Of a DNA stretch of 64,000 nt, positions 29,806-48,334 are shown piece after piece. This DNA comes from Pseudomonas fluorescens Q2-87. Its GTDB lineage: Bacteria > Pseudomonadota > Gammaproteobacteria > Pseudomonadales > Pseudomonadaceae. Under the pieces are notes generated by a model that had not been told where the DNA came from, did no database searches, and was given only the letters and a program-made list of their open reading frames with translations. The stretch's first letter is position 1. Every line of letters starts with the position of its first letter. The stretch is taken from the NCBI RefSeq assembly GCF_000281895.1, contig NZ_CM001558.1, forward strand, positions 2,670,556 through 2,734,555, read 5' to 3'. The position numbers and the translations under genes were made by a program.

Positions 29806-30786
29806 ATGCCTGATCACCGAACGCCCCTGTTCGAGCAGCGACCGGCCGAACTGGAAGTCATCCTGCCCGAGCCCGAACACAGTTTTCGCTGGTACGAGCA
29901 CGATTACCCGTACCCGTTGGCGCGCTGGAACCATCATCCCGAATTTGAAATCCATCTGATCCGCCAGGGCAGCGGAAAGCTGTTGGCCGGTGACTATATC
30001 GGCCCGTTTGGCCCCGGCCACGTCGCAATGATCGGCCCGAACCTGCCCCACGACTGGATGGGCGACCTGGCGCCCGATGAGCACTTGGCCGGGCGCGACG
30101 TGGTGCTGCAATTCGACGGCGCGACGCTGCTGAGCTTGCGCCGGACCCTGCCCGAACTGGGCGATCTGCACGGGTTGTTCGAGCGCGCTCGCCGTGGACT
30201 GGCGTTCCGCGGCAGCACCGCGCAACACGCCGGCTACCTGCTTGAAACCATCGGCCCGGCCCAGGGGTTGGCGCGCCTGGCGCTGTTCCTGGAACTGCTC
30301 GATACGTTGAGCCGGGCCCCCGAGGACGAAGCGCAAGTCCTGGCGAGCCCGTTCTACGCACCCAGCCTTGACGCCCGCAGTTCCGAGCGCATCCATAAAG
30401 CCTTCGAATATCTGCAAGCTGAACTCACCGGCGATGTGCGGCTGTCGGTCATCGCTCGCCAGCTGGACATGAGCGAACCGGGTTTCTCGCGTTTCTTCAA
30501 GCGCATCACCGGGCATGGCTTCATCGACCTGATGCGCAAGCTGCGGGTCCAGCGCGCCTGCCGGTTGCTGCTACAAAGTGAAATGCCGGTGACCGACATC
30601 TGTTTTGAGGTGGGCTACAACAACCTGTCCAACTTCAACCGACACTTTCGCATCGAGATGAACCAGACGCCGAGTGAGTATCGGCGGGGCGCGTTCGCCC
30701 TGGTTGAGGGAGCTTCCCCAGGAGCGAGCTGTGGGAGCGAGCTTGCTCGCGAAGACGGCAGCACCGCCACCATCGATGCGAACTGA
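29806..30786 (+). CDS. AraC-family transcriptional activator, extended at its 3' end by a REP element
   Basis: A 326-residue regulator. A cupin sensor domain lies at the N-terminus ([23 protein letters not shown]), and two AraC helix-turn-helix motifs at the C-terminus ([24 protein letters not shown] and [21 protein letters not shown]). The sensor resembles MtlR-type polyol regulators, consistent with the divergent polyol dehydrogenase. The usual protein end is soon after [10 protein letters not shown]; here the frame continues through a family B REP half ([10 protein letters not shown]) and overlaps the convergent sigma-54 regulator gene by 172 bases. Confidence 0.87.
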
Positions 30787-32588
30787 GCCACACAACTAAG
30801 GCAGGTCCGGCATTTAGTCCGGGATACTTTTTGATGTTTTTTCAACCGATAGGCGAACTGTGCCCGGCTCAGCCCCAACGAGCGCGCCGCCGCCGCCAGG
30901 TTGCCGCTGCTCAGTTGCAGGGCTTCGCTGATCAGTCGTGATTCCAGGCCGTCAATCGAGAAGTCCGAGTCCAGTTGGCTGAGGGACTGGAGCAACGGCG
31001 GTTTTTCTGCGGCATCGTTGGCGGCCAGGCCCATCGGCGAGAGGCCGCCGTGATGGTCCACGGAATACGCATCCACCGGCAGTTGCTCATTGCGAAACAG
31101 GTGCATCAGGTCGATCGCCTGGCCTTCTTCGCTGGCGATCAGGCCGCGCTCGATGAGGTTTTGAAGTTCCCGGACGTTTCCCGGAAAGTCATAGCGCAGC
31201 AGGACCTTCAAGGCGCGCATGGTCAAGCCCATCGGGACGCGCCCGTATTCCTGGCAAAAGCGCTTGAGGAAGGCATTGATCAGCAACGGTATGTCATCGC
31301 GGCGTTCACGCAGGGGCGGCAGGGCGATGGGGTAGACATTGAGCCGGTAGAACAGGTCTTCACGAAACGCGCCGTCCGCCACGGCTTTGCGCAGGTCGAT
31401 GTTGGTGGCCGCCACGACCCGCACATCGACCTTGATGCCGTGGCCGCCGCCGATCCGTTCGATTTCCCGCTCCTGCAAGGCGCGCAGCAACTTGCTTTGC
31501 CCGGCCAGGCTCAGGCAGGTGATCTCGTCCAGGAACAACGTGCCGCCGTGGGCGCGCTCGAAACGACCTGGGCGCGAATGGGTGGCGCCGGTGTAGGCAC
31601 CACGCTCGACGCCGAACAGTTCGGCCTCGATCAGGTTGTCGGGAATCGCCGCGCAGTTGAGGGCTATGAACGGCCCATCACGGCGGCGACTCAGTTGATG
31701 CAACTGGCGGGCGAACATCTCCTTGCCCACGCCGGATTCGCCGCTGACCAGCACGGTAGCGGGCGTCAAGGCCACCCGTTGCAGGGCTTGGGTCGCGGCG
31801 TTGAAGGCTGCGCTGGCACCGATCAGTGGTTGTTCGCTGTCAGCCAGCGGGGCGGTGCCGGCAACGTTGTCGGACCGAGTGTCGGCGCGCGCGACAATCG
31901 CAGGTTGTGAGGCGTTGAGGTAATTCAGGTCTTGCTCGACGTCCCCCCATTGCTCTGCGGTCTTGCCGACGACGCGGCAACGCTCGTGGCCCATGCCTCG
32001 GCATTCCACTTCGCGGAATATCACCAGTTGCCCGAACAGCCCACTGACGAAGCCGATGGCATAGCCCAGCTCAGTCCAGCACACCGGATCCTGCCCGGTG
32101 CCATAGGCCGCGACATGCTCGTCAGCCTCGCAGGAGTGATGCCAGAGGAACTCCCCCTCATAGAATCCCGAGTCGGAGTCGAACTTGAAATGCAGCGGTT
32201 CGACTTTGGTCATGCCTTCAAGGGTATGCAGATGCGTGCCTGCGCGAAACACCGCCGCGGCATTGGCGTGGGGCCAGCGTTCGCGAATCAGCCGCGCGTC
32301 CCGGGCGCCCGAGGAATAGCCGGTGCGGGTGAGCATGCCCCGTGCCTGCTCCAGTCCTTGGCGTTCGATGATTTCCCGGCGCAACGCCCCAAAGGACGAG
32401 CTGTGCAGCAACAACATGCGTTGGTCGTTGAGCCAGATACGCCCATCGTCGGGGGAAAAGAACAGGCAATCGGTGAGCTCTGCCGGCGTGGGCGAACTGC
32501 TGTCGCTCAGCTCGTTGCTGTCTCCGCGGGGGTGGTAATGCTCGGTGGCGACCCGCAGGTCGGGCAATTGGCAGTGGGGATTATTCAT
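30615..32588 (-). CDS. Sigma-54-dependent activator with XylR_N/V4R sensor domain
   Basis: A 657-residue activator of the XylR/DmpR class. The N-terminal XylR_N (about residues 40-120) and V4R (about 130-200, with [16 protein letters not shown] and [11 protein letters not shown]) bind an aromatic or small hydrophobic effector. The AAA+ domain carries Walker [16 protein letters not shown] (GAFTGA loop with Tyr) and Walker [11 protein letters not shown] Fis-type HTH follows ([24 protein letters not shown]). About 70 residues after the HTH are unusual and read antisense to the AraC gene. It is divergent from a sigma-54 promoter driving the aldehyde/coniferyl alcohol dehydrogenase operon, its likely target. 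Confidence 0.9.
30730..30760. repeat. Single family B REP half inside the convergent gene overlap
   Basis: GTGGGAGCGAGCTTGCTCGC lies within the 3' ends of both the AraC and sigma-54 regulator frames. Confidence 0.85.
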
Positions 32589-32605
32589 TGTTATGCCCCT
32601 GGATA

Positions 32606-32625
32606 GTGATGATCCAAATGATCAC
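32606..32625. promoter_or_regulatory. Candidate upstream activator site (imperfect inverted repeat)
   Basis: GTGATGATCCAAATGATCAC has GTGAT/ATCAC ends and lies about 150 bases upstream of the -24/-12 promoter, a normal distance for an activator of this class. A second repeat, AGTTAT-N5-ATAACT, follows at 32636-32652. Its position just before the regulator start also allows autoregulation. Confidence 0.45.
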
Positions 32626-32777
32626 CTGGCGAGATAGTTATTAAGCATAACTTTATCAAATGAACAAGCGGCAGCTGGCCAACGGCCAGGTCGGTGATGG
32701 TTAAGCGGGCACGGTGCCAGACCAAGAGCCTTGAACCAGAGCCCTGAGTCAGCTTTATCGCGGTACGCAGGCAAAAC

Positions 32778-32793
32778 CGGCACAGCGCTTGCT
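32778..32793 (+). promoter_or_regulatory. Sigma-54 (-24/-12) promoter of the aldehyde dehydrogenase operon
   Basis: CGGCACAGCGCTTGCT matches TGGCAC-N5-TTGCW with one mismatch and exact spacing (10 bases between GG and GC). It is 80 bases before the start codon and faces away from the sigma-54 activator gene. Confidence 0.75.
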
Positions 32794-32847
32794 CAAGCAC
32801 TTTCACGGCGTTTGCGGCGCGACCTTCCAGGTGCGGCAAACGATGAC

Positions 32848-32855
32848 AACAACAA
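32848..32855 (+). promoter_or_regulatory. Crc/Hfq-type CA motif (AACAACAA) before the aldehyde dehydrogenase
   Basis: A perfect AAnAAyAA match just upstream of the ribosome binding site (CGGGAG). Confidence 0.55.
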
Positions 32856-32872
32856 AGAGCCGGGAGTTATAC

Positions 32873-34345
32873 ATGTCTGCAGCCAAAAGCCACCTGCTGT
32901 CTGAGGTGATCGAGTCGGAATGCGTTTTCAACGGTGACTGGGTGCCTGCCTCGGGCCCGCTGCAAGCGATTATTGAGCCGGCCACCGGCGAGCGACTGAT
33001 GCGCAGTGCCACGGCTGACGCCGCCGACATCGCCAAGGCCAGTCGCGATGCAGCCCTGGTCCAACCGGCATGGGCAGCGCTGGGCCCACGGCAACGCGCG
33101 GCGATCTTTCGCAAGGCGGCCGATGTGGCCGAACGGTCTTTTGCGGAACTGGCGCTGTATGTCGCTCGGGAAACCGGAGCGGCCTTGTTCAAGGGTCAGC
33201 ACGAGGTTCGTGAGGCGATCGTGCTGCTGCACCAGGCGGCGGGCATGCTGTCCCAGGCCCACGGGGTGGTGCTGCCCAGCGAGGCGGGGCGCTTGTCCTA
33301 TGCGCGCCGCTTGCCCCACGGCGTGATTGGGGTGATCTCGCCGTTCAATTTTCCGTTGGTGCTGTCGATGCGTTCCGTAGCGCCAGCCCTGGCAGCGGGA
33401 AACGCGGTCGTGCTCAAGCCCGATCCGCAAACGCCGGTCAGTGGCGGTTTCCTGATTGCCCGGCTGTTTGAAGCCGCCGGGTTGCCCAAGGGGCTGTTGC
33501 AAGTATTGCCCGGTGCGGCGGATGCGGGGGAGGCGCTGTGCCGCGACCCCAACGTGAAAATGATTGCTTTTACCGGCTCTACCGGTGCCGGTCGCAAAGT
33601 GGCCGAAGTGGCCGGGCGCAACTTGAAGAAAGTCGCGCTGGAATTGGGCGGCAAAAACCCGCTGATCATCCTCGAAGATGCCGATCTGGATCTGGCCGCC
33701 CGCAATGCAGCGTGGGGCGCCTGGATGCACCAGGGGCAGATTTGCATGGCGACCGGGTTGATCCTGGTCCATGAATCCATTGCCCAGGACTTCACGCGCA
33801 GATTGGTCGAGAAAGCTCGGGCATTGACCGTGGGCGACGCCGCCCGCGAAGAAGCGGCGTTGGGCCCGTTGATCAATCAGCGGCAGCTGCAACGGGTGCA
33901 TGACATCGTCAGCGACAGCGTCCGGGCCGGCGCCACGCTGGAAACCGGCGGTGAATACGACCGGTTGTTTTACCAACCCACCGTGCTCAGCGGTGTGAAA
34001 CCGGGCATGCGCGCGTTCGAGGACGAAGTCTTTGGTCCTGTGGCGACGGTGGTCAGTTTCGCCAGCGACGATGAAGCCATCGAACTGGCGAATCGCACTG
34101 AGTACGGCTTGTCGGCGGCGATCATCTCGCCCTCGGTGGGACGGGCCATGGCCATCGGCGAGCGGCTCGAGTGCGGCATGTTGCACATCAATGACCAGAC
34201 CGTCGCCGATGAGTGCGTCAACCCGTTCGGCGGACGCGGTGCCTCGGGCAACGGCGGCAGCGTCGGCGGGCCGGCGGACTGGGACGAATACACACAGTGG
34301 CAATGGGTGACGGTGAAGGATAAGGCGCCGATCTACCCGTTCTGA
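32873..34345 (+). CDS. Aromatic (benzaldehyde/coniferyl-aldehyde-type) aldehyde dehydrogenase
   Basis: A 490-residue NAD(P)-dependent aldehyde dehydrogenase. Catalytic C291 lies in HQGQICMATG, general base E257 in ALELGGKNP and the coenzyme loop in FTGSTGAG. It resembles XylC-type benzaldehyde dehydrogenases. As the first gene after the sigma-54 promoter, with coniferyl alcohol dehydrogenase next, the likely reaction is oxidation of coniferyl or a related aromatic aldehyde to the acid. The start at 32873 follows GGGAG. The substrate is inferred from context. Confidence 0.88.
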   Translation: MSAAKSHLLSEVIESECVFNGDWVPASGPLQAIIEPATGERLMRSATADAADIAKASRDAALVQPAWAALGPRQRAAIFRKAADVAERSFAELALYVARETGAALFKGQHEVREAIVLLHQAAGMLSQAHGVVLPSEAGRLSYARRLPHGVIGVISPFNFPLVLSMRSVAPALAAGNAVVLKPDPQTPVSGGFLIARLFEAAGLPKGLLQVLPGAADAGEALCRDPNVKMIAFTGSTGAGRKVAEVAGRNLKKVALELGGKNPLIILEDADLDLAARNAAWGAWMHQGQICMATGLILVHESIAQDFTRRLVEKARALTVGDAAREEAALGPLINQRQLQRVHDIVSDSVRAGATLETGGEYDRLFYQPTVLSGVKPGMRAFEDEVFGPVATVVSFASDDEAIELANRTEYGLSAAIISPSVGRAMAIGERLECGMLHINDQTVADECVNPFGGRGASGNGGSVGGPADWDEYTQWQWVTVKDKAPIYPF

Positions 34346-34360
34346 GGCTTGTTTTTTAAA

Positions 34361-34386
34361 CAGGGGCCAATGAGCTGAGGCCCCTG
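34361..34386 (+). terminator. Intercistronic hairpin CAGGGGCC/GGCCCCTG
   Basis: A perfect 8-bp stem with a 10-base loop between the aldehyde dehydrogenase and calA. No T-tract follows, so it may stabilise or partly terminate the transcript. Confidence 0.45.
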
Positions 34387-34398
34387 CGAGCAGACAAA

Positions 34399-34406
34399 AA
34401 TAATAA
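34399..34406 (+). promoter_or_regulatory. Crc/Hfq-type CA motif (AATAATAA) before calA
   Basis: A perfect AAnAAyAA match immediately before AGAGG and the ATG. Confidence 0.55.
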
Positions 34407-34417
34407 GAGGACTCAAC

Positions 34418-35185
34418 ATGAAACTCGACAACAAGATTGTGCTGGTCACCGGTGTCTCGTCGGGTATCGGTGCTGCCACGGCAAGCGTGTTGCGCGCTCA
34501 CGGCGCCCAAGTGATTGGCGTGGATCTCAAGGCTCCGAACATGACCCTGGACGGTTTTGTGCAGGGCGATTTGAGTAGCGCCGAGAACATCGAACGCTTG
34601 CTGCCACAGCTACCCGCACGGTTCGACAGCCTGTGCAATATCGCCGGTGTGCCGGGCACCGCAAACCCGCAACTGCTGGCGCGGGTCAACTACCTTGGGC
34701 TGCGCCACCTGACCGGTTCGCTGTTACCGCGCATCAGCGCTGGCGGCAGCATCGTCAACATCGCCTCGATCCTCGGCGCCGAGTGGCCGTTACGCCTGGA
34801 GCAGCACAAGGCGCTGGCGCGTATCGAAGGGTTTGCCGCCGGGCAAGCCTGGCTCGCCGATCACCGTGTGCCGGACCAGACCTGTTACCAGTACTTCAAG
34901 GAAGCGCTGATCGTCTGGACCTACCTACAGGCCCAACCCTGGTTCCTGGAGCACTCGGTGCGCATGAACAGTGTCGCGCCAGGTCCGGTTTTCACACCGA
35001 TCCTCGACGACTTCGTGAGCATGCTCGGCGAGGCTCGGACCCAGGCCGATGCCCATCGCATGAAACGTCCCGCGTATGCCGATGAGGTGGCGGTGGTGAT
35101 TGCTTTCCTGTGCGCCGATGAGTCGCGATGGGTCAACGGCATCAACCTGCCCGTCGATGGCGGATTGGCCTCCACTTACATCTGA
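34418..35185 (+). CDS. calA: Coniferyl alcohol dehydrogenase (SDR family)
   Basis: A 255-residue short-chain dehydrogenase that oxidises coniferyl alcohol to coniferaldehyde. The NAD motif is TGVSSGIG, and catalytic S117, Y157 and K161 lie in SIL and YQYFK. The run DQTCYQYFKEALIVWTYLQ and the C-terminal segment RMNSVAPGPVFTPILDDF are close to CalA of Pseudomonas as I recall it, and the length is the same. Its place between an aromatic aldehyde dehydrogenase and the ferulate genes fits a coniferyl alcohol to ferulate branch. Confidence 0.88.
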   Translation: MKLDNKIVLVTGVSSGIGAATASVLRAHGAQVIGVDLKAPNMTLDGFVQGDLSSAENIERLLPQLPARFDSLCNIAGVPGTANPQLLARVNYLGLRHLTGSLLPRISAGGSIVNIASILGAEWPLRLEQHKALARIEGFAAGQAWLADHRVPDQTCYQYFKEALIVWTYLQAQPWFLEHSVRMNSVAPGPVFTPILDDFVSMLGEARTQADAHRMKRPAYADEVAVVIAFLCADESRWVNGINLPVDGGLASTYI

Positions 35186-35200
35186 ATGCACACCCGTAGA

Positions 35201-35218
35201 AAGCGGCGCACGCCGCTT
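35201..35218 (+). terminator. Intercistronic hairpin AAGCGGCG/CGCCGCTT
   Basis: A perfect 8-bp stem with a two-base centre, between calA and the DUF1302 gene; no T-tract. Confidence 0.4.
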
Positions 35219-35252
35219 ACCCGAGCGTGGTGGCTGCAAAGCCATGCCTGAA

Positions 35253-35263
35253 AATAACAATAA
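35253..35263 (+). promoter_or_regulatory. Crc/Hfq-type CA motifs (AATAACAATAA) before the DUF1302 gene
   Basis: Two overlapping perfect AAnAAyAA matches 13 bases before the start codon. Confidence 0.55.
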
Positions 35264-35275
35264 CGAGAAGCGTCC

Positions 35276-36925
35276 ATGGATAACGTCAAAGATTGCCTTC
35301 GTTTCAAGCATTGCGCCTTGTTCCTGGCGTTGTGCAGCACCGGTGCGATGATCGAAAGGGTCGAGGCCATGCAAATGGACCTGGGCGACTCCGACTGGAA
35401 ACTGCGTTGGGACAACACCATCAAGTACAGCCAGGCCTGGCGTCTGCAGGGCCAGGACAGTCGCGTGGTCAACGCGCCTACCGCCAACGGCCTCTACCCG
35501 TCGATCCAGAGCCAGGGCGACAAGAATTTCAGCAGTGGCCTGGTCTCCAACCGCCTGGACCTGTTTTCCGAAATGGACCTGAGCCGGCAAAACTATGGGC
35601 TGCGCGTGAGCGGCGCGGCTTGGTACGACGACATCTATAACAAGGACACCGACAGCAGCGAGCAGACGCACTTTCTCAGCGAAACCCGCAAGCTTCATGG
35701 CCGCGACGCGGAAATTCTCGACGCCTTCGTGTTCTTGCGCGGTGATTTGGGCGAAGACTCCCAGGGCGTGGCGCGTCTGGGCCGCCACAGCCTGATCTAC
35801 GGCGAAAGCCTGTTCTACGGCGGCAACGGCATCGCCAATGCCCAAGGCCCAACCGATGTGGTCAAGTTGCTCAGCGTGCCGGGGACCCAGTTCAAGGAGA
35901 TCCTGCGCCCGGTCAACCAGATCTCCGGCCAATTGCAGATCAACCCGCAGTTGTCGGTGGGTGCGTACTATCAGTTTGAGTGGGAGCGTTCCAATCTGCC
36001 GGGCGCCGGCAGCTACCTGAGCGATGCCGATGCCATCGGTCATGGCAGCGGCCCCCTGCGGGAAGTGTTCGGCAACGACACGGTGAATGGCGGCGATCTG
36101 AAACCGCGCAATTCGGGGCAGGGCGGCATGCAGATCCGCTTCAAGCCGACCGGCACCGAGCTGGAGCTGGGTTTCTACGCGGCCCAGTATCACGATAAGG
36201 CGCCGATCGGGTTGTACGCGTACCTGGACGGTCCCGCCGCAGCGGCCACTGGGTTGCCCATCCTGGGTTCCTATCGTCAGGTCTACGCCGAAGACATCAA
36301 GACTGCCGGTGTCAGTTTCTCCACTGCCTACGGTCCGTTCAATTTTGCCGGTGAAACGTCGGTGCGCTGGAATGCGCCCTTGGTGAGCAACCTGCAAGTG
36401 GTGACGCCCGGGATGGAAGCCGACGGCGACGACCATTCGTTGTTCGCCCGGGGCAAGACCGCTCACGCCAACCTGTCGGCGATTTACCTGCTGTCGCCCA
36501 CAGCATTCTGGGATGGCGGATCGGCCCTGGCCGAACTGGCTTGGAACCGCACCCTGAGCGTCACTGAAAACGCCGCCGCGCTGGATTCCAACACCACCCG
36601 CGATGCCACCGCGCTGCGAGTGTTGATGGAGCCGGCGTACTTTCAGATCGTCGACGGAATCGACCTGACCGTGCCGATCGGCATGGGCGTGGTGCTCGAT
36701 GGGCGGTCCTCGGCCGTCAACAAGTCCGGCTTCGGCAATACCCATTCCGGCGACTGGAGTGTCGGGCTCAAAGCCACCTATTTGCAGCGCTGGGACGTCG
36801 GCCTCAACTACGTGAATTTCTTCGGCGCACCGAAAGCCGGGCTGCGCGAGGACGGCAATTTCAGCTACGGACAATCGCTGGCCGACCGCGACTTCGTCTC
36901 GCTCTACGTAAAAACCTCATTCTAA
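35276..36925 (+). CDS. DUF1302 outer-membrane beta-barrel protein
   Basis: A 549-residue exported protein with alternating amphipathic strands and a C-terminal Phe (VSLYVKTSF), as expected of an outer-membrane barrel recognised by BAM. The start of the mature region (DWKLRWDNTIKYSQAWRL) is typical of DUF1302. The N-terminal export signal is present but unusual (FKHCALFLALCSTGAMIERVEA). The family is almost always next to DUF1329; function is unknown, but such pairs occur in clusters for hydrophobic substrates. It may form the outer-membrane part of an uptake or trafficking route in this operon (inference). Confidence 0.88.
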   Translation: MDNVKDCLRFKHCALFLALCSTGAMIERVEAMQMDLGDSDWKLRWDNTIKYSQAWRLQGQDSRVVNAPTANGLYPSIQSQGDKNFSSGLVSNRLDLFSEMDLSRQNYGLRVSGAAWYDDIYNKDTDSSEQTHFLSETRKLHGRDAEILDAFVFLRGDLGEDSQGVARLGRHSLIYGESLFYGGNGIANAQGPTDVVKLLSVPGTQFKEILRPVNQISGQLQINPQLSVGAYYQFEWERSNLPGAGSYLSDADAIGHGSGPLREVFGNDTVNGGDLKPRNSGQGGMQIRFKPTGTELELGFYAAQYHDKAPIGLYAYLDGPAAAATGLPILGSYRQVYAEDIKTAGVSFSTAYGPFNFAGETSVRWNAPLVSNLQVVTPGMEADGDDHSLFARGKTAHANLSAIYLLSPTAFWDGGSALAELAWNRTLSVTENAAALDSNTTRDATALRVLMEPAYFQIVDGIDLTVPIGMGVVLDGRSSAVNKSGFGNTHSGDWSVGLKATYLQRWDVGLNYVNFFGAPKAGLREDGNFSYGQSLADRDFVSLYVKTSF

Positions 36926-36940
36926 TAAGGTGGATTCGCC

Positions 36941-38302
36941 ATGCAGAACAAAGGATTCCTGAACATTTGCGTCCTGGCCCTTGCCCTTGCCGGCATGAGC
37001 CTGGCCCAGGCGGCGGTGTCGCCTGAACAGGCCGCACGTTTGAAAACCGATCTGACTCCCCTGGGCGGCGAGCGCGCCGGCAATGCCGATGGCAGTGTCC
37101 CGGCCTGGCAGGGCGGCTACACCCAGGTCTCACCCGGCTATAAAGCGGGCGACAAGCGCCCCGATCCGTTCGCCAGCGAAAAACCGCTGTATACGATCAA
37201 GGCCTCGAACATGGAGCAGTACGCCAGCGAGTTGGCCGAAGGCACCAAACTGCTGTTGAAGAAGTACCCGGACTATCGCCTGGACGTGTACCCGACCCAT
37301 CGCTCGGCCGCCGCCCCGCAGTGGGTGTATGACAACACCAGCAAGAACGCCACCCGCGCTACGTTGGAGGTGGACAGCGAGAAGGTCTCCAACGCTTATG
37401 GCGGCATCCCGTTCCCGATCCCGGAAAACGGTGCGCAAGCGCTGTGGAATTACCGGTTGTCCTGGCAGGGCGGCGACACCATCAGCTCGCCTTTCGATAC
37501 CTGGCTGATGACCGCAGGCGGCAAGAAAGTCCAAGCGACCCGGGCCCAATACACCTACCAATTTCCTTATTACGTCGAAGGCGGCAGCCTGGAAAACTAT
37601 TCGGGCAAATACCTGCTGGGCAAACTCTTGACCGAGCTGCCGTCGTCCAAGGCCGGCGAAGGCCTGATGACCCATTGGGACCTGGACCCGGCCAATCGCG
37701 CGGCCTGGCAATATCTGGTCGGCCAGCGCCGGGTTCGCCGGGCACCGAACATTGCCTATGACACGCCGGACTTCGTGACCTCGGGTGTCGGCCTGTTCGA
37801 CGAAGCGTTCATGCTGTTCGGGCCTACCGATCGTTATGACCTCAAGCTGGTGGGCAAAAAAGAACTGATCGTCGCCTACAACAATAACCGTGCCGCGCTG
37901 GCCAAGAGCGACGACCTGGTCAAGGTGAATTTTCTGAACCCCGATCTGGTGCGTTGGGAGAAACATCGGGTCTGGGTGGTCGAGGCCACGCTCAAGTCCG
38001 GCAAGCGCCATGTCGTCCCGCGTCGGACTTACTACATCGACGAAGATTCCTGGCAGATCCTCATGGCTGACGGCTATGACGCCCAAGGCAAGCTCGGCCG
38101 CCAGATGTATTCGTTGACGCTACTGGCCCCGGACCTTCCGGCCCTCACCGCACAGGTCATGTGGGGCAGCTACAACCTCGACACCGGCGCCTACTTCCTC
38201 AACTCATCGAGTAACGACTTGGCGGTCCAGTACCAGAAAGTCGCGAAGCCTTCGGCGTCCTATTTCACGCCGGATGCCATGGCCAACGAAAACATGCGCT
38301 GA
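36941..38302 (+). CDS. DUF1329 periplasmic protein (LolA/LolB-like fold)
   Basis: A 453-residue exported protein (signal peptide ending MSLAQAA). It belongs to DUF1329, which is predicted to have the half-barrel fold of the lipoprotein carriers LolA/LolB. Typical segments are DLTPLGGERAGNADGSVPAWQGG near the N-terminus and RVRRAPNIAYDTPDF mid-protein. It follows the DUF1302 barrel by 15 bases. A lipid-binding fold next to a barrel and an RND transporter suggests carriage of a hydrophobic molecule across the periplasm (inference); the cargo is unknown. Confidence 0.88.
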   Translation: MQNKGFLNICVLALALAGMSLAQAAVSPEQAARLKTDLTPLGGERAGNADGSVPAWQGGYTQVSPGYKAGDKRPDPFASEKPLYTIKASNMEQYASELAEGTKLLLKKYPDYRLDVYPTHRSAAAPQWVYDNTSKNATRATLEVDSEKVSNAYGGIPFPIPENGAQALWNYRLSWQGGDTISSPFDTWLMTAGGKKVQATRAQYTYQFPYYVEGGSLENYSGKYLLGKLLTELPSSKAGEGLMTHWDLDPANRAAWQYLVGQRRVRRAPNIAYDTPDFVTSGVGLFDEAFMLFGPTDRYDLKLVGKKELIVAYNNNRAALAKSDDLVKVNFLNPDLVRWEKHRVWVVEATLKSGKRHVVPRRTYYIDEDSWQILMADGYDAQGKLGRQMYSLTLLAPDLPALTAQVMWGSYNLDTGAYFLNSSSNDLAVQYQKVAKPSASYFTPDAMANENMR

Positions 38303-38371
38303 TCCGGTGGCGGCCGTGGCGAGAAAGAGCTTTGCCGCGGTCGCTTACGATTGTTCTGGCGGGATAACGAT

Positions 38372-39475
38372 ATGAATGTTGAAAAAATCGTTGCGAGACG
38401 CGGTCCGTTGTGGGGTGTTTGTGCCTTGGCGTTATGCCTGTTGGCGAGCGTGCCTCTGGGGGCACAGGCCTCGACGTTTGCAGTGCTGCAGCAGCCGGCA
38501 TTGCCAACTTCCAAAGCCCCGCGCACGGTATTGCTCGGGCTGGCCCGGGCCGGCGACCGACTGGTGGCGGTCGGCGAGCGCGGGATCGTGTTGCTTTCCG
38601 ATGATACAGGAGTGAATTGGCGCCAGGCCAAGGTGCCGGTCAGCGTCAGCCTGACGGCGGTGCAATTCGTCGATGCCGAGCAGGGCTGGGCGGTCGGTCA
38701 TCTGGGCGTGGTGCTGCATACCCAGGACGGTGGGGAAACCTGGCAAAAACAACTCGACGGTGAGCGGGCCAACGCACTGGCGGTGCAGATCGCCGAGCGC
38801 GACGCCCATCAACCCGGCGGTGCCAGCAATCTGGTGCAAGCACGACACATGCTCGATGACGGGCCGGATAAACCGTTTCTCGACCTGTATTTCAGTGATC
38901 GCCTGCGCGGGTACGTCGTGGGCGCCTACAACCAGATCTTCCGTACCGACGACGGCGGGCGGAGCTGGCAGCCGTGGATGCGGCATGTGGACAATCCGCA
39001 GGGCTTGAACCTGTATGGCATCCGCGCCTTGGGCAACGATCTGCTGCTGGTGGGAGAGCGCGGCCTGCTGTTGCGTTCGGCCGATGCCGGCCAGTCATTC
39101 CAGGCATTGAAATCGCCTTATGAGGGCAGCTTTTTCGGCCTGCTCAGTACCCGCGATGGGGCGTTGATTGCCTATGGTTTGCGCGGAAATGCGTGGTGGT
39201 CCGATGACCGTGGCGGCAGTTGGCGACGCCTTGATACCGGTGTCGAATCAACATTGGCGACTGCGCTTGAGCTGCGCGACGGCAGCCTGCTGTTGGCCAG
39301 CCAAAGTGGTGAGCTTCTATTCAGTCACGACCAGGGTCGAAGCTTTGACAAGCGTCAGAGCCGCAGCGGCCGGACCGTCGCCGCCATGCAACAGGCGGTC
39401 GATGGCAGCCTGGCTAGCGTCGGTTTGAGCGGCGTGGCCGCTGACCAGGATCCGCGTGCCTCCGGTAAACCTTGA
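38372..39475 (+). CDS. YCF48/BNR-like periplasmic beta-propeller protein
   Basis: A 367-residue exported protein. The ATG at 38372 gives MNVEKIVARRG... with a hydrophobic signal at about residues 14-30; a TTG at 38351 is the alternative. Repeats with the form GWAVGHLGVVLHTQDGGETWQ, IFRTDDGGRSWQ and WWSDDRGGSWRR are BNR/YCF48 blades like those of the photosystem II assembly factor Hcf136. It lies between the DUF1329 carrier and the RND transporter, so it is probably a periplasmic subunit or assembly factor of that system. No enzymatic motif is seen. Confidence 0.85.
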   Translation: MNVEKIVARRGPLWGVCALALCLLASVPLGAQASTFAVLQQPALPTSKAPRTVLLGLARAGDRLVAVGERGIVLLSDDTGVNWRQAKVPVSVSLTAVQFVDAEQGWAVGHLGVVLHTQDGGETWQKQLDGERANALAVQIAERDAHQPGGASNLVQARHMLDDGPDKPFLDLYFSDRLRGYVVGAYNQIFRTDDGGRSWQPWMRHVDNPQGLNLYGIRALGNDLLLVGERGLLLRSADAGQSFQALKSPYEGSFFGLLSTRDGALIAYGLRGNAWWSDDRGGSWRRLDTGVESTLATALELRDGSLLLASQSGELLFSHDQGRSFDKRQSRSGRTVAAMQQAVDGSLASVGLSGVAADQDPRASGKP

Positions 39476-39528
39476 AACTTCACGGTGTAGCGCTATCGGG
39501 CCACGGCTCGTGCAACAGGGAGTCAAAC

Positions 39529-41949
39529 TTGAAAGACGACAAAATCCAGACCGTGATCAGCCGCCAGGAAGACTTCGACCGGGCGTCAGGCAACTTCGCC
39601 GAACGCGCGATCTTCAACCATCGACCGCTGGTGATCCTGCTGTGCCTGTTAGTGACGTTGGTGCTCGGTTGGCAAGCCACGCGCATCGGCATCAATGCCA
39701 GCTATGAGAAAACCATTCCCACGGGGCATCCCTACGTCGCCAACTTCCTCGACAATCGCAGTGAGTTGAGCGGCTTGGGCAACTCGTTGCGCATCGCCGT
39801 GGAGGTCAAGCAGGGGAGTATTTTCACCAAGGACTACCTCAACACCCTGGCCAAGCTCAACGATGAACTCTATCTGTTGCCGGGCGTCGACCGGCCTTAT
39901 ATGAAGTCGCTCTGGACGCCGACCACCCGCTGGACTGCCGTCACCGAAGAAGGACTCGACGGCGGCACGGTGATTCCTGACGACTACGATGGATCAGCGA
40001 CCAGCCTCGAGCAGGTGCGGACCAACGTGTCCCGCTCCGGAGAAGTCGGTCAACTGGTCGCGGGCAACTTCAAGTCCAGTGTGATTTTCGTGCCGTTGCT
40101 GGAAATCAATCCACAGACGGGTAAGGCGTTGGACTATGGCGAGTTTTCCCGTCAATTGGAGGCGTTGCGAGACAAGTACCAGACGGACGACCTGCAGATT
40201 CATATCACTGGTTTTACCAAGATCGTCGGTGATCTGATCGAGGGGATGACCCAGGTACTTCTGTTCTTTGTCGTGGCGGTGCTGGTGACGGTATTGGTGC
40301 TGTTTGGCTACACCCGTTGCGCGCGCAGCACCCTGGTGGTGGTGATCTGTTCGCTGGCGGCGGTGCTCTGGCAACTGGGGCTGCTGGCCCTGCTCGGTTA
40401 TGAACTGGATCCTTACTCTGCATTGGTGCCGTTCCTGGTGTTCGCGATTGGCATGAGCCATGGCGCGCAGAAGATGAACGGCATCATGCAGGACATCGGC
40501 CGTGGTACTCACAGGGTGGTCGCCGCGCGCTATACCTTCCGCCGACTGTTTGCGGCGGGCATCACCGCTTTGCTCTGTGATGCGGTGGGCTTTGCCGTTC
40601 TGCTGTTGATCAATATTCGGGTGATCCAGGACTTGGCAATCACCGCCAGCCTCGGTGTGGCGGTGCTGATTTTCACCAACCTGATCCTGCTGCCGATCCT
40701 GCTCAGCTATATCGGCGTGAGCCCGGCGGCGGCACAACGCAGCCTGAGTTCGGAAACCACCGAGCAGCAGGCGCAGATCAAGCATCCGCTGTGGCGTGTA
40801 CTCGACCTGTTCACCCAGCGGCGCTGGGCCATTGGCGCCATGGTGGTTGGCTTGCTGTTGGCCGCGTGTGGTTTTGCCGTGAGCTTGCATTTGAAGATCG
40901 GCGATCTGGACCCCGGCGCTCCGGAATTGCGCGCCGACTCGCGCTACAACCGCGATGCGCTGTTCATGACGCAAAACTATGCGGCCAGCTCGGATATTTT
41001 CGTGGTCATGATCAAGACCCCGGAGGACCAATGCACCCGTTACGCCAGTTTGTCGGCGGTGGACGCGCTGGCCTGGCAACTGGAGCAGTTGCCCGGCGTG
41101 GAGTCGACCACTTCGATGGCGGCACTGAGCAAGATCGCCACGGCCGGTTATAACGAAGGCAACTTCAAATGGTATGAACTGATCCCCAACGACGGCGCGT
41201 TGGGCGCCGTGCAAACCCGTGCACCGCGGGAGCTGTTCAACCAGGGTTGTTCAATGCTGTCGTTATACGTCTATCTTGCCGATCACAAAGCTGACACCTT
41301 GAACCGGGTGGTGGAGGCCAGTGAGCAGTTTATCGCTGGACATCACGTGCCAGAGGTCAAGTTCATGCTGGCGGCCGGCAGCGCGGGTATCGAAGCGGCG
41401 ACTAATATCGTGGTGAAGAAGTCCATGCGCGAGATGCTGTTCTGGGTCTACGGTGCGGTCAGCCTGCTGTGTCTGCTGACCTTCCGCAGCTGGCGCGCAA
41501 CCCTGTGCGCGATGCTGCCGCTGATGCTCACCTCGATCCTGTGCGAGGCACTGATGGTGGGGCTAGGCATGGGGGTGAAAGTTGCGACGCTGCCCGTCAT
41601 TGCCCTGGGCGTGGGCATCGGCGTCGACTATGCGCTTTATGTGCTGAGCGTGATCCTGGCTCGAATGCGTGCCGGTGACACCCTGGCCCAGGCGTATTAC
41701 CAGGCGCTGCTGTTCACCGGCAAGGTGGTGTTGCTGACAGGTATGACGCTGGCTGTGGCTGTGTCGACCTGGGCCTTTTCACCGATCAAGTTCCAGGCCG
41801 ACATGGGGATCTTGCTGGCCTTCATGTTCCTGGTGAATATGCTCGGTGCCTTGATCCTGCTGCCGGCCTTGGCCTGGCTGCTGCTGCCACAGAAGGTCTT
41901 CGCAAAAAAGCCTGAACTGACCCGGCAGGAGCGGTGGGTTAGGGGGTGA
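39529..41949 (+). CDS. RND/MMPL-family transporter
   Basis: An 806-residue inner-membrane protein with the RND layout: one membrane segment near residues 33-50, a large periplasmic loop, five segments at about 230-400, then the same pattern repeated to the end (VGIGVDYALYVLSVILARM is the typical second-half segment). It resembles HpnN/MmpL-type lipid transporters more than drug pumps; no membrane-fusion protein is present. The likely start is TTG at 39529, six bases after GGGAG; a TTG at 39472 overlaps the previous stop. It closes the sigma-54 operon and may move the hydrophobic cargo handled by DUF1302/DUF1329. Confidence 0.87.
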   Translation: MKDDKIQTVISRQEDFDRASGNFAERAIFNHRPLVILLCLLVTLVLGWQATRIGINASYEKTIPTGHPYVANFLDNRSELSGLGNSLRIAVEVKQGSIFTKDYLNTLAKLNDELYLLPGVDRPYMKSLWTPTTRWTAVTEEGLDGGTVIPDDYDGSATSLEQVRTNVSRSGEVGQLVAGNFKSSVIFVPLLEINPQTGKALDYGEFSRQLEALRDKYQTDDLQIHITGFTKIVGDLIEGMTQVLLFFVVAVLVTVLVLFGYTRCARSTLVVVICSLAAVLWQLGLLALLGYELDPYSALVPFLVFAIGMSHGAQKMNGIMQDIGRGTHRVVAARYTFRRLFAAGITALLCDAVGFAVLLLINIRVIQDLAITASLGVAVLIFTNLILLPILLSYIGVSPAAAQRSLSSETTEQQAQIKHPLWRVLDLFTQRRWAIGAMVVGLLLAACGFAVSLHLKIGDLDPGAPELRADSRYNRDALFMTQNYAASSDIFVVMIKTPEDQCTRYASLSAVDALAWQLEQLPGVESTTSMAALSKIATAGYNEGNFKWYELIPNDGALGAVQTRAPRELFNQGCSMLSLYVYLADHKADTLNRVVEASEQFIAGHHVPEVKFMLAAGSAGIEAATNIVVKKSMREMLFWVYGAVSLLCLLTFRSWRATLCAMLPLMLTSILCEALMVGLGMGVKVATLPVIALGVGIGVDYALYVLSVILARMRAGDTLAQAYYQALLFTGKVVLLTGMTLAVAVSTWAFSPIKFQADMGILLAFMFLVNMLGALILLPALAWLLLPQKVFAKKPELTRQERWVRG

Positions 41950-41977
41950 CTGCGTTCATTCAGGTGAACATCGAATC

Positions 41978-42112
41978 TGTGGGAGCGAGCTTGCTCGCGA
42001 AGGCGGCGTACCAGTCGACCTGTTGCTTCCTGATGTACCCAATCCAATGCTGTGGGTCATGGCAAATAGGTTGAATTCGCTGACATCATCGCGAGCAAGC
42101 TCGCTCCCACAA
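41978..42112. repeat. Inverted REP pair, family B variant
   Basis: TGTGGGAGCGAGCTTGCTCG at the left and the inverted copy ending AGCTCGCTCCCACA at the right, in the region between convergent genes. A GCCGCC/GGCGGC hairpin follows near 42140. Confidence 0.88.
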
Positions 42113-42238
42113 TTGGATCGAAGCACGCCGAAGAGTCAGGCCGCCTCGCGGCGGCCCACGGAGCAATGCCGAAAGTGGGCCGCTGTAGGAGCGAAGCCAT
42201 AAGCCGCCGTTACGACGACAACGGATAGGTACGCCGAA

Positions 42239-43462
42239 TCAGGAATGCTTCACAACCGGCCTTGCCGCCCCGAGCCCCAGCCCAGTCGAACGGCGCATCA
42301 CCCCAAGAACAGCCAGCGTCGCGACCACCAACCCCGGTGAAGTCGCCAACAATACGGCAGCAGTCCCACCCCCAGCCGCCAGGATCTGTCCAGCCGCCAA
42401 AGGACCAGCAACCGAACCCAACCGTCCGATAGCGACCGCCGCACCTACGCCAGTCGCACGCACAGCAGTGGGGTAGGAGGGCGGTGCCAGGGCATAAAGC
42501 ACCAACTGCGCAGCCATGACAAACAACCCCGCGGCGAACCCTGCCATCGCCATCGGCACGATGCCGACGGACAAGCCGACCCCGGCCAGGGCGCTCAGCA
42601 GACCGGCATAGACAAACAGCACCACCTTCACGCCATTGCAGCGGTCCAGCAACAGGCCACCCAGTAACGAGCCAAGTGCACCACCGATGTTGAACAGCAT
42701 CTGCACCAAGCCGGCCTGAGGTTTGCTGAAGCCCTGTTCCACCAATAACGATGGCAGCCAGTTCAGCAGCATGTACATGACCGTCAGGGTGAAAAAATAG
42801 CTCAGCCATAGCGCCACGGTAGTACGGCTGCGACCTTCAGCGAACAGCGCCTGGGCGGTTGTGCCGCGCCGTTGGCCGCCATCCTGCGCCTGGCGAAAAG
42901 CGCTGGATTCAGGCAGCCACAACAGCATCAGCGGAACCACCAACAAGGGAGCCAAGCCACCGATGAAAAAGGTCATCTGCCAGTGCTCGCCAAAAACCAT
43001 GGCGACCACCGCGGCCAAGGCACCGCCCAACGGCACCCCCGCATACATCACGCTGATGGCCGTGCCACGGCGTTCTTCTCCCACGGCTTCGGCACACAAC
43101 GCAATGAGGTTGGGCAGGGCGGCGCCCAGGCCCAGGCCGGTCATGAAGCGCACCAACAGCAGGCTGGAAAAATGCTCGACATGCGCAGTGCTGAGGGAAA
43201 ACACACCGAACAGCAGGACGGCGGCGATGAGGATCTTCTTGCGACCGATGCGATCGGCGATCCAACCGCCGAAGAACGCCCCAGGCAAAAGGCCGATGAT
43301 CCCGGCGCTGAAAACCCAACCCATCATTTTCGGGTCCAGGGCAAACGTCTGCCGCAAGCCGGCGGCGGCAGTGCCGGCCGATTGCAAATCGAAACCTTCG
43401 ATCAACGCAACGATAAAACACAAGGCAATGGTCAGCGTCGCACGACGCGCCGGCTGGTTCAT
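42239..43462 (-). CDS. MFS transporter, aromatic acid:H+ symporter family
   Basis: A 407-residue permease with 12 membrane segments. The start at 43462 gives MNQPARRATLTIALCFIVALIEGFDLQSAG; the family signature GFDLQ and the loop motif GGWIADRIGRKKIL are clear, as in PcaK/MhpT-type aromatic acid symporters. It is divergent from the OprD porin and close to the ferulate genes, so import of ferulate or other hydroxycinnamates across the inner membrane is likely. The promoter has a copy of the TTAGTTA box (43529-43546) and the leader a perfect CA motif. Confidence 0.9.
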   Translation of the reverse strand: MNQPARRATLTIALCFIVALIEGFDLQSAGTAAAGLRQTFALDPKMMGWVFSAGIIGLLPGAFFGGWIADRIGRKKILIAAVLLFGVFSLSTAHVEHFSSLLLVRFMTGLGLGAALPNLIALCAEAVGEERRGTAISVMYAGVPLGGALAAVVAMVFGEHWQMTFFIGGLAPLLVVPLMLLWLPESSAFRQAQDGGQRRGTTAQALFAEGRSRTTVALWLSYFFTLTVMYMLLNWLPSLLVEQGFSKPQAGLVQMLFNIGGALGSLLGGLLLDRCNGVKVVLFVYAGLLSALAGVGLSVGIVPMAMAGFAAGLFVMAAQLVLYALAPPSYPTAVRATGVGAAVAIGRLGSVAGPLAAGQILAAGGGTAAVLLATSPGLVVATLAVLGVMRRSTGLGLGAARPVVKHS

Positions 43463-45733: not shown

Positions 45734-45769
45734 TAGTTAATTGACATAACTAAATTTGCGGTTTAGCTT
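45734..45769 (+). promoter_or_regulatory. ech promoter with overlapping MarR-type operator
   Basis: TTGACA (45741-45746) and TAGCTT (45764-45769) are 17 bases apart. The -35 lies inside an inverted repeat TAGTTA-N7-TAACTA (45734-45752), so a bound repressor would block RNA polymerase. The reverse strand shows the TTAGTTA-N6-TTAAC box at 45736-45753. Confidence 0.65.
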
Positions 45770-45785
45770 TTACTCATCTTCAGCC

Positions 45786-45793
45786 AAGAACAA
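45786..45793 (+). promoter_or_regulatory. Crc/Hfq-type CA motif (AAGAACAA) before ech
   Basis: A perfect AAnAAyAA match next to the GAGAG ribosome binding site. Confidence 0.5.
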
Positions 45794-45806
45794 GAGAGCG
45801 CGCATC

Positions 45807-46637
45807 ATGAGCAATTACGACGGTCGCTGGAAAACGGTCAAGGTCGACATTGAGGAAGGCATCGCCTGGGTCACCCTCAATCGCCCGGAAAAACGCAACG
45901 CCATGAGCCCGACCCTCAACCGCGAGATGATCGACGTGCTCGAAACTCTGGAACAGGATCCCGCCGCCGGTGTACTGGTGCTGACCGGGGCCGGCGATGC
46001 CTGGACTGCGGGCATGGACCTCAAGGAATATTTCCGCGAAGTGGATGCCGGGCCGGAAATCCTCCAGGAAAAAATCCGTCGCGAAGCCTCGCAATGGCAG
46101 TGGAAATTGCTGCGCATGTACGCCAAGCCCACCATTGCGATGGTCAATGGCTGGTGCTTCGGTGGTGGTTTCAGCCCTCTGGTGGCCTGCGACCTGGCGA
46201 TCTGCGCCGACGAAGCGACTTTCGGCCTGTCGGAAATCAATTGGGGCATTCCGCCTGGCAACCTCGTCAGCAAGGCCATGGCCGATACCGTGGGCCATCG
46301 CCAATCGCTGTACTACATCATGACCGGCAAGACCTTCGGCGGGCAGAAAGCTGCCGAGATGGGCCTGGTCAACGAAAGCGTCCCCTTGGCGCAACTGCGT
46401 GAAGTCACCGTTGAACTGGCGCGCAACCTCCTGGAGAAAAACCCGGTGGTGCTGCGGGCCGCCAAGCATGGCTTCAAGCGCTGCCGCGAACTGACCTGGG
46501 AGCAGAACGAGGATTACCTGTACGCCAAGCTCGACCAGTCCCGTCTGCTCGATACCGAAGGCGGCCGCGAGCAGGGCATGAAACAGTTCCTCGACGACAA
46601 GAGCATCAAGCCCGGCCTGCAAACCTACAAGCGCTGA
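45807..46637 (+). CDS. ech: p-Hydroxycinnamoyl-CoA hydratase/lyase (feruloyl-CoA to vanillin)
   Basis: A 276-residue crotonase that hydrates feruloyl-CoA and cleaves it to vanillin and acetyl-CoA. Key residues known from P. fluorescens HCHL fall at exactly the same numbers with this start: Y75, S123, E143 and Y239. The oxyanion-hole region is GAGDAWTAGMDLKEYF and NGWCFGGGFS. This residue-level match fixes both function and the start at 45807. It leads ech-vdh-fcs, under the operator described above. Confidence 0.97.
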   Translation: MSNYDGRWKTVKVDIEEGIAWVTLNRPEKRNAMSPTLNREMIDVLETLEQDPAAGVLVLTGAGDAWTAGMDLKEYFREVDAGPEILQEKIRREASQWQWKLLRMYAKPTIAMVNGWCFGGGFSPLVACDLAICADEATFGLSEINWGIPPGNLVSKAMADTVGHRQSLYYIMTGKTFGGQKAAEMGLVNESVPLAQLREVTVELARNLLEKNPVVLRAAKHGFKRCRELTWEQNEDYLYAKLDQSRLLDTEGGREQGMKQFLDDKSIKPGLQTYKR

Positions 46638-46745: not shown

Positions 46746-48194
46746 ATGCTGGACGTGCCCCTGTTGATCGGCGGCCTGTCGTGTCCCGCCCGTGACGGCC
46801 GGACCTTCGAGCGCTGCAATCCGGTAACCGGTGAGGTGGTCTCGCGCGTTGCCGCCGCCACCCTGGAAGATGCCGATGCCGCCGTGGCCGCCGCGCAAGC
46901 CGCGTTTCCCGCCTGGGCCGCGCTGGCCCCCAACGAACGCCGCACCCGCCTGCTGCGCGCGGCCGAGCAATTGCAGGCTCGTAGCGGCGAATTCATTGCG
47001 GCTGCCGGCGAGACCGGTGCCATGGCCAACTGGTACGGTTTCAACGTGCACCTGGCGGCAAACATGCTGCGCGAAGCCGCTGCGATGACCACCCAGATCA
47101 ATGGCGAAATCATTCCTTCGGATGTGCCCGGCAGCTTCGCCATGGCCTTGCGTCAACCCTGCGGCGTGGTACTGGGTATCGCACCGTGGAACGCGCCGGT
47201 GATTCTCGCCACCCGCGCCATCGCCATGCCGCTGGCCTGTGGCAACACGGTGGTGCTCAAGGCTTCCGAGATAAGCCCGGCCGTGCATCGGTTGATTGGC
47301 CAGGTGCTGCAGGACGCCGGTTTGGGCGACGGCGTGGTCAATGTCATTTGCAACGCCCCGGCCGATGCGCCGGCGATTGTCGAGCGCTTGATCGCCAACC
47401 CGGCGGTACGCCGAGTGAATTTCACCGGCTCGACCCATGTCGGCCGTATCGTCGGTGAGCTGTCGGCGCGCCACCTCAAGCCGGCCTTGCTGGAATTGGG
47501 CGGCAAGGCACCGTTGCTGGTGCTGGACGACGCCGACCTGGACGCAGCAGTCGAGGCCGCAGCCTTCGGCGCGTACTTCAACCAGGGGCAGATTTGCATG
47601 TCCACCGAGCGCCTGATCGTCGACGCCAGCGTGGCCGACGCCTTTATCGCTCGGCTGACCGCCAAGGTCGCCACGCTGCGCGCCGGCGATCCCACAGCCG
47701 GTGATTCGGTGCTCGGTTCGCTGGTGGATGCCGGCGCCGGCCTGCGCATCAAAGGGCTGATTGACGATGCCTTGGGCAAAGGGGCAACGCTGCTGGCGGG
47801 CGGACAATTGGACGGCAGCATCCTGCAGCCGACCCTGCTTGATGGCGTCACCGAACACATGCGCCTGTACCGCGAAGAATCCTTCGGCCCCGTGGCGGTG
47901 CTGCTGCGCGGTGACGGCGATGAAGAACTGCTGCGCCTGGCCAACGACTCCGAATTTGGCCTCTCGGCGGCCATTTTCAGCCGCGACACCGCGCGTGCAC
48001 TGGCCCTGGCCCAACGAATCGAATCGGGCATTTGCCACATCAATGGTCCGACCGTGCACGACGAGGCGCAAATGCCCTTCGGCGGGGTCAAGTCCAGTGG
48101 TTACGGCAGCTTTGGCGGCAAGGCGTCGATCGAGCATTTCACCCAGTTGCGTTGGGTGACCCTGCAGAACGGTCCACGGCATTACCCGATCTGA
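46746..48194 (+). CDS. vdh: Vanillin dehydrogenase
   Basis: A 482-residue aldehyde dehydrogenase that oxidises vanillin to vanillate. Catalytic C284 lies in NQGQICMSTE, general base E250 in LLELGGKAP, and the coenzyme loop is FTGSTHVG. The N-terminus (MLDVPLLIGGLSCPARDGRTFERCNPVTGE) and the length agree with Vdh of ferulate-degrading Pseudomonas. Gene order ech-vdh-fcs is typical. AGAGGA precedes the start, with a 7/8 CA motif beside it. Confidence 0.94.
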   Translation: MLDVPLLIGGLSCPARDGRTFERCNPVTGEVVSRVAAATLEDADAAVAAAQAAFPAWAALAPNERRTRLLRAAEQLQARSGEFIAAAGETGAMANWYGFNVHLAANMLREAAAMTTQINGEIIPSDVPGSFAMALRQPCGVVLGIAPWNAPVILATRAIAMPLACGNTVVLKASEISPAVHRLIGQVLQDAGLGDGVVNVICNAPADAPAIVERLIANPAVRRVNFTGSTHVGRIVGELSARHLKPALLELGGKAPLLVLDDADLDAAVEAAAFGAYFNQGQICMSTERLIVDASVADAFIARLTAKVATLRAGDPTAGDSVLGSLVDAGAGLRIKGLIDDALGKGATLLAGGQLDGSILQPTLLDGVTEHMRLYREESFGPVAVLLRGDGDEELLRLANDSEFGLSAAIFSRDTARALALAQRIESGICHINGPTVHDEAQMPFGGVKSSGYGSFGGKASIEHFTQLRWVTLQNGPRHYPI

Positions 48195-48256: not shown

Positions 48257-48334
48257 TGACAAGGCCGCAGCCAGACGCTGCGGGGCTGCGCTCGCTTTGT
48301 GCGAACCGAGTCTGCCTTGGTGGAGGAAATGTAC

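Follow-up and report, generated by a model that had tools for sequence, protein, structure and literature searches.

Why should genes for the oxidation of coniferyl alcohol stand in one row with genes for a transport system of the cell envelope? This question is raised by a window of 64,000 nucleotides (i.e., the whole stretch of DNA that was analysed) from Pseudomonas fluorescens Q2-87, whose genome is a single contig of 6.37 Mb and whose proteins in this stretch have their closest relatives in Pseudomonas. Here, six co-directional genes (32873-41949, plus strand), with a regulator gene divergent to them, encode an aldehyde dehydrogenase (ALDH), the coniferyl-alcohol dehydrogenase CalA, and proteins of the DUF1302, DUF1329, YCF48, and RND families. 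The answer that we prefer, and to which we give about an even chance, is that this is a substrate-induced aryl-alcohol operon with a tetrapartite exporter that clears hydrophobic phenylpropanoids and is of the type of AmeABCD, the set described in Castellaniella defragrans 65Phen as a conserved cassette of a DUF1302 protein, a DUF1329/LolA superfamily protein, a COG4447 protein, and an HAE3 RND transporter (PMC6394551). The entry of lignin-derived aromatics into Gram-negative cells, or the protection of the cells from their toxicity, matters for lignin bioconversion, and with this operon a widespread, little-studied four-part RND machine gains a likely class of natural substrates, together with a switch and a straightforward means of assaying it.

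The gene positions, the families, and the divergent V4R-type regulator given for this DNA in an earlier note were borne out by the open reading frames (ORFs) and by Pfam and NCBIfam, and the ORFs and their gaps also bear out its co-directional run of ALDH, CalA, and four envelope genes. The ALDH (32873-34345, plus strand; PF00171) is judged from its closest relatives of known structure to be of the aromatic-aldehyde type, dehydrogenases of 4-hydroxybenzaldehyde, benzaldehyde, salicylaldehyde, and vanillin being among its best matches in the PDB; as the TTG start proposed by the ORF lister (32789) falls inside the -12 box of the promoter, the ATG at 32873 is its likely start. CalA (34418-35185, plus strand) is a short-chain enzyme identified by sequence, matching the NCBIfam model NF009092, “coniferyl-alcohol dehydrogenase”, with 386.8 bits, over the curated cut-off of 242. 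The envelope genes follow on the same strand, beginning with an AmeA-like DUF1302 protein (35276-36925; PF06980, 380 bits), for which the PDB search found no sequence relatives and whose C-terminal Phe suggests an outer-membrane barrel, and an AmeB-like DUF1329 protein (36941-38302; PF07044, 413 bits), in which hydropathy marks a hydrophobic, signal-peptide-like segment at the N-terminus. The latter had been called a LolA-like carrier, of which the DUF1329 family stands, while the resemblance to LolA is under the cut-off (27.4 bits against the LolA-like PF17131, with a cut-off of 30). The last two are an AmeC-like YCF48/PSII_BNR protein (38351-39475; PF14870), predicted from hydropathy to be exported and with Ycf48/HCF136 as its solved relatives, and an AmeD-like, HAE3-like RND/MMPL transporter (39472-41949; PF03176), whose best NCBIfam match is the HAE3 model TIGR00921, at 160.1 bits vs a cut-off of 351.9.

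The gap between ALDH and CalA is 72 bp, and those that follow are 90, 15, 48, and -4 bp in gene order. Consensus scans found neither a sigma-70-like promoter on the plus strand of 32400-42300 nor, between any two neighbours of the six genes, a terminator-like site, the numbers of sites being no higher than in shuffles, and the six genes probably form a single transcription unit. A strong hairpin in the gap between CalA and DUF1302 (35201-35218), with a similar stem in seven of the eight group A species of the survey below, was rejected as a terminator because a T-run is absent; it is possibly an element of transcript processing or stability.

The linkage of CalA to the transporter was followed in 149 Pseudomonas species, evenly drawn from a larger group. 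Of these, 28 have a CalA of at least 59% identity (split over two frames in G101), and every one of the 16 CalA of at least 72% identity has an RND of at least 74% downstream, at 5.0-5.25 kb from start to start; these 16 RNDs are also the best matches that the 149 genomes gave. All 16 fetched regions hold the divergent regulator, CalA, DUF1302, DUF1329, YCF48, and the RND, while ALDH comes first in ten of the operons and does not adjoin CalA in the six species of group C. In G001, G168, and G101, no RND lies near CalA among the matches listed. The idea that CalA is always accompanied by the machine was rejected, as this is so in 16 of the 28.

The claim of one sigma-54-type promoter facing away from the activator is equally upheld, given that the site is kept in each of the 16 species that have CalA beside this RND. 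The predicted -24/-12 (sigma-54) promoter, CGGCACAGCGCTTGCT (32778-32793, plus strand), rests on this conservation and on its match to the consensus; it is one of two sites in the window with no more than one mismatch, while 64 sites vs 46.5 expected have no more than two. The site was compared with those of relatives, with shuffles, and with random windows. In the 16 species, the best site between the regulator and the first gene scores 14-15/17 and lies 94-122 bp before the first-gene match, a score that was reached, depending on the region, by 0.4-5.8% of 500 shuffles; the weaker values belong to the six group C species, whose surrounding sequence is unlike that of groups A and B, ATGGCATATCGCTTGCT being nonetheless kept. 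Similarly, in a set of named loci that partly overlaps with the 16 species (L084, G035), all 13 in which the sensor domain is accompanied by CalA or ALDH, among them Massilia, Polaromonas, and Variovorax, score at least 14/17 in this region, vs 179 of 1598 random 450-bp windows, with one locus (L088) deviating at the -12 GC. The idea that the cassette as such is under sigma-54 control was rejected: without CalA, a site lies within 450 bp upstream of DUF1302 in 6 of 61 loci, which is no more than the background of 179/1598, and the 61 include two loci (L095, L096) with a site further upstream.

Two candidate activator sites, a palindrome (32614-32629) and an inverted repeat (32631-32657), lie 121-164 bp upstream of the -24 box, the usual distance of such sites being 100-200 bp in the available text of PMC3040749. 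The alignments keep the inverted repeat in all eight group A species and, in recognisable form, in both group B species, and the palindrome in six of the eight group A species; in that form, neither was found in the alignments of the group C species. From sequence, both may be binding sites of the activator.

The activator gene itself (30615-32588, minus strand) is of the XylR/DmpR type, with XylR_N, V4R, sigma-54 AAA+ (Sigma54_activat), and Fis-type helix-turn-helix (HTH_8) domains in Pfam and a position divergent to the -24/-12 promoter. The relatives of its sensor in the PDB are CapR, MopR, and a phenol regulator, and it scores 504 bits against the NCBI MobR model, below the cut-off of 999. 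In DmpR, the phenol hydroxyl is positioned by His100 and Trp128, with Tyr in place of the His in XylR (PMC7264223, in the part available). The aligned residues His121 and Trp149 are kept in 37 of 37 regulator rows, as are the zinc positions Cys170, Glu193, Cys196, and Cys204, in an alignment that counts the regulator of the window twice and includes transporter-less and benzyl-type operons. These residues make a phenolic inducer plausible, and the benzyl-type operons, in which they are kept too, caution against naming the effector. The regulator ORF also extends some 70 residues beyond the helix-turn-helix (30615-30830), and its 3' end carries an in-frame repeat resembling repetitive extragenic palindromic elements (match at 30732-30747); the extension is possibly a repeat-derived tail or the result of a lost stop.

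More widely, the four-gene set was surveyed in 80 named genome loci, which are the best 80 of 585 and thus biased to this RND type, and on plasmids, where ten of the 43 records with an RND match were opened. The four families, which the earlier note rightly suspected of forming a single machine, one described before as AmeABCD, lie together in 73 of the 80; two of these (L124, L132) have A and B some 5 kb upstream of C. Five of the other seven end at contig ends (L098, L141, L142, L149, L156), and two with full flanks (L134, L147) hold C and D only. The relatives of this RND are therefore not usually found apart from the other three families, though DUF1302-DUF1329 pairs alone do exist (L063, L064). 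Annotation and tblastn placed all four families in each of the ten plasmid regions, nine of them in A-B-C-D order and one rearranged, with C-D, an insertion sequence element, and then A-B. CalA is present in 11 of the 80 named loci (six Pseudomonas, Massilia Root351, Polaromonas JS666, Variovorax CF079, and Vitreoscilla and Burkholderiales metagenome-assembled genomes), and a divergent sensor domain in all of these 11, as against 22 of the 80 overall. A different dehydrogenase is found in Azospirillum B510 (L036), where A-B-C-D is preceded by a benzaldehyde dehydrogenase and a zinc alcohol dehydrogenase (the latter with the benzyl alcohol dehydrogenase 1f8f second among its PDB matches); a sigma-54 regulator (58% match) is convergent, and a site of 16/17 lies ahead of the ALDH. 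In two loci of marine Oceanospirillales (L095, L096), a regulator and ALDH-A-B-C-D are followed by a zinc alcohol dehydrogenase of the benzyl type, and the sigma-54 sites score 16/17.

When 103 RNDs were placed in a FastTree phylogeny, one clade of 24 (support 0.899) was found to hold all 18 CalA-linked RNDs and three that are linked to a zinc alcohol dehydrogenase (L036, L095, L096). Its other members are two whose partners are cut off (L098, L149) and one of Pseudomonas taiwanensis (L087), near which neither the enzyme nor the regulator was found and a chemoreceptor, a LysR gene, and folate genes are present. One further locus (L114; zinc alcohol dehydrogenase match of 55%, ALDH match of 49%) falls outside, so that 21 of the 22 aryl-alcohol-linked loci, and three of the four of benzyl type, lie inside. 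The evidence that this gives for a substrate-linked branch is moderate, as the support is below 0.95 and the descent of whole operons contributes; if the result stands, it would mean that different members of the machine are adapted to particular substrates.

In 15 aligned RNDs, the Ser-His of the N-half motif (S329-H330) and Asp719 of the C-half motif are invariant, and these residues could belong to a proton path. The N-half motif, FAIGxSHxxQKMNGI (residues 324-338), has Ser-His where the C-half motif (712-723) has Asp-Tyr, a pair that is possibly a signature of this RND family. Used as a profile against the PDB, the RND alignment gave no match at 1e-12, and a single-sequence search gave weak matches to MmpL and HpnN. 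Two assignments to known classes were rejected. Against an HAE1 tripartite pump, no Pfam match to a membrane fusion protein or a TolC-type protein was found among 10 + 20 window proteins (part of the window's ORFs); against the BstABC sterol and HpnN hopanoid transporters, the RND scores 30.4 vs 1400 for BstA and 51.4 vs 751.85 for HpnN.

Given this, a mechanism may be proposed in which the DmpR-like activator would sense a phenolic phenylpropanoid and drive the one sigma-54 promoter, whereupon CalA and ALDH would oxidise coniferyl alcohol to ferulate, to be taken further by the ferulate genes 4 kb downstream. The DUF1302, DUF1329, YCF48, and RND proteins, whose genes are presumably co-transcribed, would meanwhile move the hydrophobic substrate, be it the alcohol, the aldehyde, or a related phenylpropanoid, across the outer membrane, presumably as a proton-coupled physical complex, drawing the cargo from the inner membrane and the periplasm, so that the cell would tolerate its own toxic substrate. 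The earlier note had seen here a route for a hydrophobic molecule across the envelope, possibly for lignin monomers; an inward route for these is possible, and outward clearance is favoured, because in simulation coniferyl alcohol readily crosses the P. putida outer membrane without specific porins (PMC9720347, in the text available) and because the characterised relative, AmeABCD, is thought to export. In C. defragrans, cells deleted for ameABCD tolerated monoterpenes less well and grew less on the unfunctionalised ones, and the part of the report available proposes an exporter (PMC6394551).

Several observations speak against this reading. Nine Pseudomonas species (L073-L081) carry the regulator (79-84%), the ALDH (78-86%), and CalA (64-67%) without the transporter, none of the four envelope genes being found within the 16-19 kb regions taken, and the transporter is therefore not required for coniferyl alcohol oxidation as such. 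Furthermore, the available text of the C. defragrans study gives no effect of the ameABCD deletion on growth on perillyl alcohol, aldehyde, or acid, i.e., the functionalised analogues, and reports that Nile Red was only slightly higher in the mutant treated with carbonyl cyanide m-chlorophenylhydrazone (CCCP), real-time efflux being almost identical (PMC6394551). Finally, the P. putida homologues PP_0765, PP_0766, PP_2018, and PP_2019 are needed for growth on Tween 20 according to the accessible part of PMC10866462, which could also mean uptake.

The nine transporter-less operons also provide a natural control, and bear on the history of the locus. In the regulator tree, the window species and G060 group with the transporter-less set (100/99), and likewise in the ALDH tree (83/88), while in the CalA tree (100/100) and the RND tree (93/99) they group with the other group A species. 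This conflict implies that CalA and the envelope genes share a history that the regulator and the ALDH do not, with the break between ALDH and CalA. In the one transporter-less operon that was scanned (L080), CalA is followed by a Phenol_MetA_deg outer-membrane protein (8933-9916), possibly an alternative envelope partner.

The existence of these sister operons would also fit a general solvent-stress pump, in which an inducible, broad-range tolerance module was recruited into the operon and the cargo is not specially the substrate of the latter. Such a pump, which we hold to be unlikely, would account for the same four genes adjoining homogentisate and hydroxyquinol dioxygenases and Rieske and FAD enzymes, and for the family-matched neighbours of the CalA-less loci, which are mostly catabolic or transport proteins (FAD_binding_3 in 16 and MFS in 14 of the 115 ORFs scanned). 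However, the gathering of 21 of 22 aryl-alcohol-linked RNDs in one clade, whatever the dehydrogenase, goes beyond free recruitment, though common descent could explain part of it.

An importer, somewhat more doubtful in our estimate, would use the DUF1302 barrel and the DUF1329 carrier to take in lignin fragments of low solubility, such as dimers and esters, with the RND and the propeller energising release or extraction and CalA oxidising the freed side-chain alcohols. The close link of the envelope set to catabolic genes speaks for it, but the RND pumps characterised to date are, to our knowledge, exporters. The Tween 20 requirement in P. putida (PMC10866462) points inward, as do the reduced growth on perillic acid, too, after a transposon insertion in ameB (PMC6394551) and the impaired phenanthrene growth of Delftia after deletion of a DUF1329 gene, as cited in PMC13101534; on the other hand, the ameABCD phenotype resembled a lowered tolerance, and acetate rescued it in part, in the text available (PMC6394551), and the easy simulated passage of coniferyl alcohol across the outer membrane (PMC9720347) makes a dedicated monomer importer less needed. 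A wider form of the same idea, in which the aryl-alcohol branch as a whole would be an RND-energised phenylpropanoid uptake system spanning alpha-, beta-, and gammaproteobacteria, the RND and the propeller drawing monolignols or dimers inward via DUF1302 and DUF1329 to CalA, appears to us improbable. A carrier that moves lipid between the membranes and so adapts the envelope to aromatic alcohols is very improbable, as the weak likeness of DUF1329 to LolA and of the RND to HpnN and BstA is offset by scores far under the cut-offs for the latter two and by the neighbouring genes in the ten annotated plasmid regions, which serve catabolism and not lipid synthesis.

Downstream of the operon are, on the plus strand, a p-hydroxycinnamoyl-CoA hydratase/lyase (45756-46637, score over the cut-off), an aldehyde dehydrogenase that we read as vdh (46746-48194), and an acyl-CoA synthetase that we read as fcs (48299-50212; 692.2 bits, below the cut-off of 777); the three enzymes fit a route from ferulate to vanillate. 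An MhpT-like MFS carrier and an OprD porin also lie downstream. The gene annotated as calA in KT2440 (PP_2426), re-annotated as an aldehyde reductase in the available text of PMC7054097, encodes a zinc-type enzyme, unlike the short-chain CalA of the window. Elsewhere in the genome of Q2-87, there is a second complete DUF1302-DUF1329-YCF48-RND set (L062, within 2531500-2551000 of the contig; 46/49/50/68% identity), near a glyoxalase-type protein, an MFS carrier, and a Fer2 reductase, and the two DUF1302-DUF1329 pairs mentioned above, which have no adjoining YCF48 or RND and resemble PP_0765/PP_0766. Three other Pseudomonas genomes (G027, G013, G028) have 23, 14, and 10 DUF1329 matches, which suggests large expansions of the module.

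Among the known systems, the xyl-type benzyl alcohol operons combine a benzyl alcohol dehydrogenase and a benzaldehyde dehydrogenase under an XylR-type regulator. The window shares with them the alcohol and aromatic aldehyde dehydrogenases and the type of regulator, whereas their alcohol dehydrogenase is a zinc enzyme and the window has the short-chain CalA and four envelope genes. With the phenol regulators DmpR/CapR, MopR, and PoxR, the regulator of the window has in common the domain layout, the pocket His and Trp, and the Cys/Glu/Cys/Cys zinc positions.

On the side of the envelope, DUF1329 accompanies DUF1302 or a porin-like protein in the “nanopod” clusters of the hydrocarbon degrader Delftia (PMC3110197), and in benzene-degrading Desulfobacterota, also hydrocarbon degraders, the set includes YCF48 and MMPL as well (PMC13101534); unlike in the window, neither an alcohol dehydrogenase nor a V4R regulator is reported in the accessible portions of these two papers. 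The P. putida homologues likewise comprise DUF1302, DUF1329, a periplasmic protein, and an RND-type efflux transporter that are functionally linked, with contacts predicted by co-folding that are strong between the RND and its periplasmic partner and weak for DUF1329 in the part of the source available (PMC10866462); they differ from the window set in their substrate and, by their locus numbers, in lying at two separate loci and not in one operon.

The closest likeness in layout is to AmeABCD, with which the window set shares, as compared by family descriptions in the available text, the same four families in the same A-B-C-D order, a catabolic island, and the lack of a membrane fusion protein. 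The differences are that the C. defragrans set is associated with monoterpenes and that of the window with coniferyl alcohol genes, and that the latter shares its operon with the oxidising enzymes, under a DmpR-like activator and a sigma-54 site. The earlier description of the envelope set as uncharacterised and known only by domain names must therefore be given up, since AmeABCD has these families, this order, and a deletion phenotype (PMC6394551), and the P. putida homologues are linked to growth on Tween 20 (PMC10866462). A paper tying the module to coniferyl alcohol was not found in the literature searched, whose coverage leaves most subscription journals outside. The envelope module is thus already known, and what is new is its tie to aryl-alcohol oxidation, nearly all RND transporters so linked falling in one clade.

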